A stretch of DNA of 64,000 bases, taken from Hydrocarboniphaga daqingensis (GTDB taxonomy: Bacteria; Pseudomonadota; Gammaproteobacteria; Nevskiales; Nevskiaceae). This document shows positions 21,569 through 26,165 of the stretch, piece after piece. The stretch spans positions 62,001-126,000 of the forward strand of contig NZ_FQWZ01000008.1 in NCBI RefSeq assembly GCF_900129825.1, written 5' to 3'. The position numbers were made by a program, and so were the translations under genes. How positions within the stretch are numbered: position 1 is the first letter of the stretch; each line of letters opens with the position of its first letter. The notes below the pieces were generated by a model. That model was not told where the DNA came from and made no database searches. It saw only the letters and a list, made by a program, of their open reading frames with translations.

Positions 21569-21635
21569 CTAGCCGACGCGGTCCGCGATCAGGCTGCGGC
21601 AGCGCCAATTCACGCTGTAGGAGCAAGGATTGATC

Positions 21636-23081
21636 ATGGCCAGCAAGCAGCAGTCACCGGCGGTATCGGGCGGGGCAGGCGCATTCCGCACCGAGCACGA
21701 CAGCATGGGTCCGCTGCAGGTGCCGGCCGATGCGCTCTGGGGGGCACAGACGCAGCGGGCGATCGACAACTTCCCGGTGTCAGGACTGGTGCTGCCGCGC
21801 GGCATCGTCCGCGCGCTGGGCTTGATCAAGGCCACGGCGGCCGAGGTCAACCTAGGACTCAAGCTGCTCGACGCGCCGCGCGCCGGCGCGATCGTGACCG
21901 CCGCGTTGGCGGTTGCCGACGGTGATCACGATGCGCAGTTCCCGATCGACGTCTTCCAGACCGGCTCGGGTACGTCGAGCAACATGAACGCCAACGAGGT
22001 GATCGCGCACCTGGCGTCGCGCGCGCTGGGTACCGACGTGCACCCAAACGATCACGTCAACATGGGCCAGAGCTCCAACGACGTGTTTCCGACCGCGATC
22101 CACGTCGCCGCGAGTCTGGCCATCGTCGAGCAGTTGCTGCCGTCGCTGCGGCAGCTGAGCAAAACGATCCGGCGCAAGGGACGGCAACTCAAAGACATCA
22201 CCAAGACCGGGCGCACGCATCTGATGGATGCGATGCCGCTGCGCTTCGATCAGGAGTTGTCCGGCTGGGCACAGCAGATCGACAACGGCATCGCCCGCGT
22301 CGAGTCGGCTCTGCCGCGATTGCAGGCGCTGGCGCAAGGCGGGACGGCGGTCGGTACCGGCATCAACGCCGAGCCGCGCTTTGGCAAGCGCTTCGCCAAG
22401 GCGCTGGCGCGGCGTACCGGTATCGCATTCACCCCGTCACCGAATTACTTTGAAAGCCTGTCCTCGCAGGATGCGGCCGTCGAGGTCAGCGGCCAGCTCA
22501 AGACCGTGGCCGTATCGCTGATGAAGATCGCCAACGACCTGCGCTGGATGAACTCCGGACCGCTCGCCGGCCTGGGCGAGATCGAGCTACCGGCGCTCCA
22601 GCCGGGTTCTTCGATCATGCCGGGCAAGGTCAACCCGGTCATCGCCGAAGCGGTGGCGATGGTCTGCGCCAAAGTCATCGGCAACGATGCCGCGATCACG
22701 ATCGCCGGCCAGTCGGGCAACTTCCAGCTCAACGTGATGCTGCCGTTGGTAGCGCACGATCTGCTGCAGTCGATCGGGCTGCTGTCCAGTGCATCGCGAC
22801 TGCTGGCCGACCGCGCAATCGCAGGGTTCACGGTGCGCCGCGATCGGGTCGAGGCGGTGCTCGCGCAGAACCCGATTCTCATTACGGCCGCCAATCGAGT
22901 GATCGGCTATGAAGCCGGTGCCGCGATCGCCAAGCAGGCCTATCAGGAGCGCCGGCCGGTACTGGATGTCGCGTTGGAGCGCACTGGGCTCGACCTCGCC
23001 ACGTTGCGCCGGCTGCTCGACCCGGCCACGCTGACCGAAGGCGGCATTCCGGACCCACAGCGGCGAGGCGGCGGCGGCTGA
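21636..23081 (+). CDS. fumC: Fumarate hydratase class II
   Basis: Iron-independent fumarase that hydrates fumarate to malate. The 481-residue protein has the superfamily signature GSSIMPGKVNP, the segment QTGSGTSSNMNANEV that forms part of the active site, and TGRTHLMDAMP, where most FumC proteins read THLQDATP. The Met changes are seen here but do not remove the catalytic His. Aspartase was considered; the THLxD form and the substrate loop favour fumarase. The ATG at 21636 has an AAGGA site six bases upstream; a TTG two codons earlier is less likely. An unrelated class I fumarase lies 1.6 kb downstream. Confidence 0.9.
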   Translation: MASKQQSPAVSGGAGAFRTEHDSMGPLQVPADALWGAQTQRAIDNFPVSGLVLPRGIVRALGLIKATAAEVNLGLKLLDAPRAGAIVTAALAVADGDHDAQFPIDVFQTGSGTSSNMNANEVIAHLASRALGTDVHPNDHVNMGQSSNDVFPTAIHVAASLAIVEQLLPSLRQLSKTIRRKGRQLKDITKTGRTHLMDAMPLRFDQELSGWAQQIDNGIARVESALPRLQALAQGGTAVGTGINAEPRFGKRFAKALARRTGIAFTPSPNYFESLSSQDAAVEVSGQLKTVAVSLMKIANDLRWMNSGPLAGLGEIELPALQPGSSIMPGKVNPVIAEAVAMVCAKVIGNDAAITIAGQSGNFQLNVMLPLVAHDLLQSIGLLSSASRLLADRAIAGFTVRRDRVEAVLAQNPILITAANRVIGYEAGAAIAKQAYQERRPVLDVALERTGLDLATLRRLLDPATLTEGGIPDPQRRGGGG

Positions 23082-23202: not shown

Positions 23203-24510
23203 ATGCTTGGACTTGGGAAGAAGGTCAGTCGGGAGGCCGAGGCGGCACCCAGCGCCAGCGCGGCGTTCTTGCAGGTGGTCACGCCGACGCTGTTGCAGGC
23301 CGATGCCGACGTTCGGGCGTTGATTGACCGGCAGTTGCCGGCGCCCAACCAGTGCCAGATCGTGGCCGGCAGCGCGGCGTTGCGTATCGAATCGCCGTTT
23401 GTTCTGAGTCTGTTCGTCGACCCGTCTTCGCTCGATCCGATCGCCGACGCCGTGCTGCGTCGCCGCCAGGCCGGGCACGCCACCACGCTGATCGTGGCCA
23501 TCAATCCCACGCAACTCGCTGCGCTTGGCCGCTGGCTCGAAGCGCGCGCCAACGCCTCGACCCTGGTCGGTACCCGCTTGATCCTGGCGCCGACCGTCGA
23601 CGGCGTCGTCCGCCAACTGGCGGACCGGCTGGCCCAGGTCACCGAGGACAACGTGATCCGCATGCCGGTCTCGCCGGAGATCGAGAACACCGACTACAAG
23701 AACTTTTTCGTGTTCAGCCCGCAGCTGCATCGGCTGGCCGCGCGCATCCGCGGCTTCACGCAGAACGGCATCAGCCGCGCCTATCTGCTGGGTGGACCGG
23801 GTTCGGGCAAGACCTCGTTCGCGTTCTATTTCTGGCTGATGCGCAACAAGGGTCGGTTCGTATCGGTGAACCTGGCCGCCGAGTCGACCGGCGACAAGGC
23901 CGCGATCAAGTCGCTGCTGTGCGGCCACGTGTCGGGCGCGTTCCCGGGCGCCGGCGCGCGCACCGGTGCGTTTCTCCATGCCCGTGACGGGGTCTGCTTC
24001 ATCGACGAAAGCCATGGCGTCACCGGCCCCGTGATGGAGGTCTTGATGGAGGCGCTGGACAACGGCCAGTACCTGCCGTTTGGCGCATCGGCCAAGCAAC
24101 CCATTCAGTGCGCGATTGTGTTTGCCAGCAACCGCAGCTGGGAGCATCTGCAGAGCGCGGTGAATCTGGACGAGTTCACCCGTATGGGCGCGGCAATCCT
24201 CGAAGTGCCCGAGCTGCACAAGCGCGAAGAAGACATGATCGCCGTCGTCGCCACGACGCTGGCGCGTTTGGGTCAGCGCTGCTCCACGTGGACGGCGCCG
24301 CTGGGTCTGTCGGAAGCCGGCTGGAAGGCGATCCGCGAATGCCGCTGGCACGGCAACGTGCGCGCGCTGGTACGCGTGCTGGAAGCCGCGTTCGTCGATA
24401 CGGCTTCGGCCGGCGGCGGCGAGCTGATCCAGGCCGACGAGATCGAGCACGGCATCGCACTGTGGGAGCCCAAGGCGCATCACAGCCACCAGATCTACGC
24501 GGCTGCCTGA
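23203..24510 (+). CDS. Orphan AAA+ ATPase of the sigma-54 activator type with GAFPGA loop
   Basis: A 435-residue protein. Residues 20-150 form an unrecognised alpha/beta domain. The AAA+ module has Walker A GGPGSGKTS (197-205), then GAFPGA at 245-250 where sigma-54 activators have GAFTGA, a Walker B-like FIDES (266-270), and RWHGNVRAL (from 381) matching the activators' PGNVREL. There is no Fis-type DNA-binding helix at the C-terminus, which ends in HHSHQIYAAA. The loop Thr that contacts sigma-54 is Pro here, so sigma-54 activation is doubtful; a MoxR/RavA-like remodelling role is possible. A strong ribosome site (GGGGGACGGA) sets the start. It sits between two fumarases. Confidence 0.8.
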   Translation: MLGLGKKVSREAEAAPSASAAFLQVVTPTLLQADADVRALIDRQLPAPNQCQIVAGSAALRIESPFVLSLFVDPSSLDPIADAVLRRRQAGHATTLIVAINPTQLAALGRWLEARANASTLVGTRLILAPTVDGVVRQLADRLAQVTEDNVIRMPVSPEIENTDYKNFFVFSPQLHRLAARIRGFTQNGISRAYLLGGPGSGKTSFAFYFWLMRNKGRFVSVNLAAESTGDKAAIKSLLCGHVSGAFPGAGARTGAFLHARDGVCFIDESHGVTGPVMEVLMEALDNGQYLPFGASAKQPIQCAIVFASNRSWEHLQSAVNLDEFTRMGAAILEVPELHKREEDMIAVVATTLARLGQRCSTWTAPLGLSEAGWKAIRECRWHGNVRALVRVLEAAFVDTASAGGGELIQADEIEHGIALWEPKAHHSHQIYAAA

Positions 24511-24530
24511 GCCTGGCCGCAACGCACCAG

Positions 24531-24554
24531 ACCCGGCCGATGGCCGGGTTTTTT
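24531..24554 (+). terminator. Rho-independent terminator after the AAA+ gene
   Basis: An 8-bp stem ACCCGGCC/GGCCGGGT with a 3-base GAT loop, running into six T. It lies 20 bases after the stop and separates the ATPase from the class I fumarase. Confidence 0.88.
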
Positions 24555-24644
24555 GTGCATGCGGGTCATGGCCGACGGCGGACGGACCGCGCTGAAGTCC
24601 GGTAGCATTTGCGCCGCCTTCACATGCCCTGATCCCAGCCCATC

Positions 24645-26165
24645 ATGACCACGATCCGCCAGGAAGACTTCATCACGTCGATCGCCGACGCCTTCCAGTA
24701 CATCAGCTACTACCATCCGCTCGACTACATCCAGGCGCTCGGTCAGGCGTACGAACGCGAGCAGAACCCGGCGGCCAAGGATGCGATCGCGCAGATCCTG
24801 ACCAACTCGCGGATGAGCGCCGAAGGTAAGCGGCCAATCTGCCAGGACACCGGCATCGCCACCGTGTTTCTGAAGATCGGCATGGACGTGCGCTGGGACG
24901 CCAAGATGAGCGTCACCGACATGGTCAACGCCGGCGTCAAGCGCGCCTACGACCACCCGGACAACAAGCTGCGCGCCTCGGTGCTGGCCGACCCGGCCGG
25001 CAAGCGCACCAACACCAAGGACAACACGCCGGCGGTGATCCACTACGAGATTGTCGAAGGCCACCACGTCGAAGTGATCTGCGCGGCCAAGGGCGGCGGA
25101 TCCGAAGCCAAATCCAAGCTGGCGATGCTCAATCCCAGCGATTCCATCGTTGACTGGATTCTGAAGACGATCCCGACGATGGGCGCCGGCTGGTGCCCGC
25201 CCGGCATCTTGGGTGTCGGCATCGGCGGCACGCCCGAAAAGGCGATGCTGCTGGCCAAGGAATCCCTGATGGCGCCGGTCGATATCCACGAACTGATCGC
25301 ACGCGGCCCGAAAACGCGCGCCGAAGAACTGCGTCTGGAGTTGTACGAAAAGGTCAATGCGCTGGGCATCGGCGCGCAGGGCCTCGGCGGCCTGACCACC
25401 GTGGTCGACGTCAAGGTGCTCGACTACCCGACGCACGCGGCCAACCTGCCGGTGGCGATCATCCCGAACTGCGCGGCGACGCGGCACGTGCACTTTCACC
25501 TCGATGGCTCCGGCCCGGCGGTGCTGCCGACGCCCAAGCTCGAAGACTGGCCCCAGGTCACCTGGAAGGCCAATCTTGAAACCTCCAAGCGCGTCAACCT
25601 CGACACGCTGACGCAAGAAGAAGTCGCCAGCTGGAAGCCGGGTCAGACGCTGCTGCTCAACGGCAAGATGCTGACCGGCCGTGACGCGGCCCACAAGCGC
25701 ATCGCCGACATGCTCGCCAAGGGCGAAAAGCTGCCGGTCGATTTCAAGAATCGCGCGATCTACTACGTCGGCCCGGTCGATCCGGTGCGCGACGAGGTCG
25801 TCGGTCCGGCCGGCCCGACCACGGCCACGCGCATGGACAAGTTCACCGAGATGATGCTGGCGCAGACCGGGCTGATCACGATGATCGGCAAGTCCGAGCG
25901 CGGCCCCGGTGCGATCGAATCGATCAAGAAGCACAAGAGCGCCTACCTGATGGCGGTCGGTGGCGCGGCGTATCTGGTCGCCAAGGCGATCCGCAGCGCC
26001 AAGGTCGTCGGCTTTGAAGACCTGGGCATGGAAGCGATCTACGAGTTCGAAGTGCAGGACATGCCGGTCACCGTCGCCGTCGACGCCAAGGGCGAGTCGG
26101 TGCATGAAACCGGACCGAAGATCTGGCAGGCCAAGATTGGCAAGATTCCGGTCGCGGTGGCCTGA
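24645..26165 (+). CDS. Fumarate hydratase class I (iron-sulfur)
   Basis: A 506-residue 4Fe-4S fumarase. Cluster cysteines are expected in ICQDTG, WCPPG and PNCAATRH, all present. The N-terminal alpha domain and C-terminal beta domain (KNRAIYYVGPVDPVR onward) are fused in one chain, as in E. coli FumA/FumB. Being cluster-dependent it should be oxygen- and iron-sensitive, unlike FumC encoded upstream. Start ATG gives MTTIRQEDF. The stop overlaps the dsbB start by one base (TGATG), so the two are likely co-transcribed, which is an unusual pairing. Confidence 0.95.
   Translation: MTTIRQEDFITSIADAFQYISYYHPLDYIQALGQAYEREQNPAAKDAIAQILTNSRMSAEGKRPICQDTGIATVFLKIGMDVRWDAKMSVTDMVNAGVKRAYDHPDNKLRASVLADPAGKRTNTKDNTPAVIHYEIVEGHHVEVICAAKGGGSEAKSKLAMLNPSDSIVDWILKTIPTMGAGWCPPGILGVGIGGTPEKAMLLAKESLMAPVDIHELIARGPKTRAEELRLELYEKVNALGIGAQGLGGLTTVVDVKVLDYPTHAANLPVAIIPNCAATRHVHFHLDGSGPAVLPTPKLEDWPQVTWKANLETSKRVNLDTLTQEEVASWKPGQTLLLNGKMLTGRDAAHKRIADMLAKGEKLPVDFKNRAIYYVGPVDPVRDEVVGPAGPTTATRMDKFTEMMLAQTGLITMIGKSERGPGAIESIKKHKSAYLMAVGGAAYLVAKAIRSAKVVGFEDLGMEAIYEFEVQDMPVTVAVDAKGESVHETGPKIWQAKIGKIPVAVA

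Follow-up and report, generated by a model that had tools for sequence, protein, structure and literature searches.

A gene that lies between two fumarase genes in the window (the 64,000-nucleotide stretch of Hydrocarboniphaga daqingensis DNA that was analysed) encodes a AAA+ protein of the type that activates sigma-54. We assign a probability of about 0.5 to the view that this ATPase descends from sigma-54 activators, no longer has either their DNA-binding domain or their sigma-54 contact residue, and now serves the Tad (Flp) pilus in an accessory or regulatory capacity. The view rests on the retained ATPase motifs, the loss of the loop threonine and of the helix-turn-helix (HTH) domain throughout the orthologues, the adjacency of the gene to Tad in three families and the co-occurrence of the two. 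With moderate confidence, the gene is functionally reassigned from the fumarases to Tad.

The protein (Table 1) matches the Pfam domain PF00158 (Sigma54_activat) over residues 174–319 with an E value of 2e-17, above the curated cut-off, and shows a weak match to AAA_lid_14, below its cut-off; the Pfam scan detected no HTH domain in its 435 residues. The initial annotation had recognized a sigma-54-activator-type module with Walker A, GAFPGA, FIDES and WHGNVRAL motifs, which is borne out by the open reading frame, the Pfam match and 39 distinct orthologues, and had noted that a Fis-like C-terminus is missing, which agrees with the absence of a Pfam HTH and with the presence of only ∼30 residues beyond the lid (final letters WEPKAHHSHQIYAAA). 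The closest curated models, RtcR, NorR, NifA and PspF, all score far under their cut-offs: the full-length RtcR equivalog model, for example, gives 87.8 bits where 650 are required, and its AAA part alone is matched. Sequence matches in the PDB are to NifA, NtrC1 and PspF, and alignment with these structures places R327 at the second arginine of the FRxDLYYR finger region and N321 at the first. Residues required for hydrolysis (Walker A and B, the switch Asn, the sensors and the finger) are kept in all intact copies, except that Asn stands in for one of the two finger arginines.

Table 1. Coordinates of the AAA+ protein gene, its motifs and its surroundings in the window.
Feature	Positions	Strand	Basis and remarks
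fumC, flanking, forming no functional unit with the ATPase gene	21630..23081	+	Neighbourhood comparison
AAA+ protein gene	23203..24510	+	435 aa, ATG start; translation, PF00158 match, orthologues
Predicted N-terminal domain, receiver-like alpha/beta, degenerate phosphoacceptor site	23260..23640	+	Residues ∼20–146; AlphaFold2 prediction, Leu70 invariant
Walker A, GGPGSGKT	23791..23814	+	Residues 197–204; GG[PS]G[SA]GKT in 39/39 orthologues
Altered sigma-54 contact loop, GAFPGA	23935..23952	+	Residues 245–250; Pro in 36/39 orthologues, Ala in 3/39
Walker B, VCFIDESH	23992..24015	+	Residues 264–271; D268 and E269 invariant
Sensor II region, WHGNVRAL	24346..24369	+	Residues 382–389; R387 invariant
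Conserved C-terminal tail, LWEPxxHHSHxIY	24460..24507	+	Replaces DNA-binding domain; W421, E422, P423, H426, S428 and H429 invariant
Intrinsic terminator, after the ATPase gene and ahead of fumA	24530..24555	+	Hairpin followed by U run
Class I fumarase gene (fumA), flanking, separate	24645..26165	+	Neighbourhood comparison

Orthologues were found in 52 of the 85 genomes of the order and, at E ≤ 1e-23, in none of the other genomes of the class-level (369) and phylum-level (399) samples. Pairwise identities range from 50% to 81% (21 aligned orthologues). Intact copies among the 39 distinct orthologues retain Walker A, the DE pair of Walker B, the Asn223 switch, the Asn310 sensor, R327 and R387, and terminate in a tail of the LWEPxxHHSHxIY type; as they are retained by 39 distinct orthologues, the features of the protein are not due to chance. 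Conservation of the loop region SLLCGHVxGAFxGA is strong outside the altered position; the variants are GAFPGA (35 orthologues), GSFPGA (one) and GAFAGS or GAFAGA (three). None of the 39 has Thr or Ser at that position, and none ends in an HTH tail or carries another DNA-binding domain. The AAA core is only ∼30% identical to those of other activators of the same genomes; in one member of family f6 (G054), the nearest other match is an ordinary activator, probably of the PAS type, with Walker motifs, a GAFSGA loop and an intact C-terminal extension. Judged by its sequences, the family appears confined to one order and derived from sigma-54 activators; it belongs to a known AAA+ class rather than to a new one.

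The N-terminal residues had been described as matching no domain, which holds for profiles (neither Pfam nor receiver and TadZ_N profiles gave a match, and hhalign against TadZ_N returned a probability of 0.7%) but not for structure, as residues 20–145 are predicted to form a receiver-like domain. AlphaFold2, run with 12 sequences, gave this domain a mean pLDDT of 85.7 and the element order b1 a1 b2 b3 a3 b4 a4 b5 a5, that of a receiver without helix 2. When FVLS-L70-FVDP is aligned by eye with FVIS-D57-WNMP, which we take to be the CheY stretch that contains the phosphoacceptor Asp57, the invariant Leu70 falls at the phospho-Asp position, so the domain differs from a two-component receiver in both this residue and the lack of a profile match. 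Foldseek with the N-terminal model alone returned mixed Rossmann-like matches, including CheY (target TM 0.60), that are not specific. With the full model, the top matches were the receiver-AAA structures of NtrC1, LuxO and NtrX, although the AAA part of that model is poor (pLDDT ∼40) and was not used further. Since no profile supports homology, we call the domain receiver-like tentatively and on structural grounds. In having a receiver-like domain at the N-terminus and an ATPase after it, the protein recalls TadZ/CpaE of the Tad pilus system, but the ATPase there is MinD-like and here AAA+, and the N-terminal profiles do not match.

As the initial annotation stated, the gene sits between fumC and a class I fumarase gene; the metabolic or Fe-S link to the fumarases that was suggested from this position did not survive. 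The order purB-fumC-ATPase-fumA-dsbB-rraA is shared by Hydrocarboniphaga, Solimonas, Sinimarinibacterium, Stagnimonas and some others, and this synteny is what would favour a remodeller tied to the fumarases or their Fe-S cluster. However, the ATPase gene has a terminator of its own, with a fold of -21.6 kcal/mol (z -2.8) and a GC stem of seven pairs followed by six U; a consensus terminator scanner did not detect it, probably because the stem takes up part of the T run. The gene is likely a transcription unit of its own. In H. effusa (L032, 7755-8000), the interval between purB and the ATPase gene lacks fumC while the remaining synteny is intact, and the ATPase gene is parted from fumA by unrelated opposite-strand genes in Stagnimonas and in several species of Solimonas (among these genes are what appear by eye to be a phosphoesterase-like and a cytochrome c peroxidase-like gene). 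The fumC/AAA/fumA linkage therefore holds in part of the family only: in at least seven other genera or families the gene lies elsewhere, with no fumarase homologue nearby in g2, g5, g6, g8 and g12, in most of the inspected members of g3, and in families f2 and f6. Clustering of the neighbours over ∼34 loci recovered chiefly genus-level synteny blocks and no conserved neighbour other than Tad. The terminator and the variable genomic context led us to reject a fumarase or Fe-S partner, a role that we consider highly improbable; given this terminator and the differing neighbours in other genera and families, the fumarase neighbourhood is best read as reflecting shared descent, not function.

Adjacency to Tad was seen in three families (f2, genus g2 of f1, and f6), in three differing arrangements. 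The gene of the f2 genome (G037) is located ∼1.4 kb upstream of a Flp-TadE-RcpC-secretin locus, with two intervening genes on the opposite strand that, by eye, we take to be lpxH-like and cyclophilin genes. In two g2 genomes (G004 and G015) it is divergent from a PAP2-Flp-TadV-TadE locus, from which an apaH-like gene separates it in G015, and in one f6 genome (G449) it converges on the TadG-like end of a Tad locus across a gap of 24 bp. The chance of three such adjacencies in nine independent contexts is ∼5e-5, a rough figure that assumes random placement. Most genomes do not have the gene near Tad. In the genome from which the window comes, a PAS-GGDEF-EAL protein is encoded after the Tad locus, beside a DUF3613 protein (L070:3896-7051).

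Analysis of the distribution of Tad, with either RcpC or TadZ_N taken as a marker of its presence, covered the 52 genomes with the gene and the 33 without it, some of which are incomplete assemblies, so that absence of the gene from them is uncertain. RcpC alone was found in 50 of the 52 gene-bearing genomes and 18 of the 33 others; adding TadZ_N brought in G003 and raised the latter count to 19 (50/52 versus 19/33, Fisher p 1.4e-5, a value that ignores shared ancestry). The association also appeared within f1 (45/45 with the gene versus 10/13 without, p 0.009) and within f6 (4/6 versus 0/11, p 0.006), again with shared ancestry ignored, and there was none with two control systems, flagella (FliF, p 0.20) and T6SS (TssC, p 0.31). 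Thus, the gene is both linked to Tad loci and found with them across genomes. Only two gene-bearing genomes depart from this pattern, the closely related f6 members G053 and G058, both of which lack Flp and RcpC: G058, which has no TadZ either, carries a disrupted copy of the gene (a TAG stop, shifts and a missing tail), and G053 has an apparently intact gene and no Tad markers. Conversely, the gene is absent from ten Tad-bearing f1 genomes and from all nine sampled genomes of f3–f5, each of which has a Tad marker; Tad therefore does not require it. A broken copy (frameshift and TAG) is also present in G016 (L063, 5828-7079), which has kept RcpC. The interval between this copy and dsbB is too small for a class I fumarase gene.

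The protein resembles bEBPs (RtcR, NorR, NifA and PspF being the best models) in the class of its AAA+ core, its Walker A and B motifs, switch Asn and sensor II, in having one finger-region Arg and in the presence of an N-terminal domain ahead of the core. It departs from them in having GAFPGA or GAFAGA for GAFTGA, Asn321 for the first Arg of FRxDLYYR, and the LWEPxxHHSH tail instead of the HTH domain that is usual, if not universal, in bEBPs. In PspF, the loop Thr contacts sigma-54 (PMC2941729), and in Bradyrhizobium NifA a Thr-to-Pro change in the loop inactivated the protein (as stated in PMC4641369). DVU2960 of Desulfovibrio vulgaris also has a GAFPGA loop, did not bind candidate promoter DNA and has an unclear sigma-54 function (PMC4641369); it lies in another operon, has a DNA-binding region, judging by its inclusion in the DNA-binding-domain tree of that paper, and is likened to our protein by loop and AAA+ class only. 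The suggestion of the initial annotation that the protein may have left transcription is reasonable as far as ordinary sigma-54 activation is concerned, since no orthologue has the loop Thr or Ser or a DNA-binding domain, and we read the protein as having given up the usual way of activating sigma-54. The activators FlgR and CtcC likewise have no DNA-binding domain, yet both retain GAFTGA and are able to activate sigma-54 promoters. By analogy with FlgR, the protein might still function as a sigma-54 co-activator, acting from solution, perhaps on Tad promoters or on others, in spite of the Pro or Ala in its loop. The strong conservation of the remainder of the loop region and the presence of rpoN in all 85 genomes, in up to three copies, speak for such a co-activator, but we regard it as unlikely, given the missing Thr, the fate of the NifA mutant and a simple -24/-12 scan that revealed nothing convincing upstream of ten Flp genes. 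Genomes with a single rpoN carry the ATPase gene too, which also speaks against the co-activator, rules out dependence on extra rpoN copies and, as rpoN is found in every genome, means that no special sigma-54 explains the gene. Many genomes of the order have two or three rpoN genes, with three in G000.

Another candidate role, which we find quite unlikely, is that of a negative regulator that poisons true sigma-54 activators by forming heterohexamers with them. It would suit a protein that has kept its oligomerization and ATPase residues and lost its sigma-54 contact and DNA-binding parts, and potential partners exist in several genomes, where PilR-like activators with GSFTGA or GSFSGA loops are encoded ∼20 kb from Tad RcpC genes (L087–L091, in G014, G026, G038, G045 and G048). 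However, mixed rings are uncertain because the AAA cores are only ∼30% identical, and evidence for a shared regulon is lacking. It is also conceivable, if improbable, that the protein is a regulator with an unrelated, Tad-independent role and that its correlation with Tad is a by-product of phylogeny. The predominance of unlinked genes, the retention of the gene in G053 and the lack of a phylogenetic correction in the co-occurrence p-values are all compatible with such a role, but it leaves the three separate Tad adjacencies to chance and does not account well for an association that appears in f1 and f6 separately and in neither control system.

For the Tad accessory ATPase that we favour, we infer the ATPase activity as well as the target and the direction of the effect. 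The AAA+ protein would form ATP-driven rings, and its receiver-like N-terminal domain would gate the ATPase through protein contact, not phosphorylation. On the most economical reading, the target would be a protein other than sigma-54. The conserved loop and the LWEPxxHHSH tail would make the contact, and the protein that they bind may be related to Tad, whether as one of its regulators or as a part of the pilus machine. A bolder version, in which the ATPase has moved from transcription to the pilus and uses ATP to remodel the Tad machinery, or the hub of its assembly, directly, appears doubtful. The sigma-54 activators, an AAA+ class that has been studied in depth, are usually taken to act on sigma-54 alone. 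If our reading is true, this family would show where the class can go, with DNA binding and sigma-54 contact lost and an ATPase that is kept and follows a pilus, and it would add an unrecognized ATPase to the biology of the Tad pilus.
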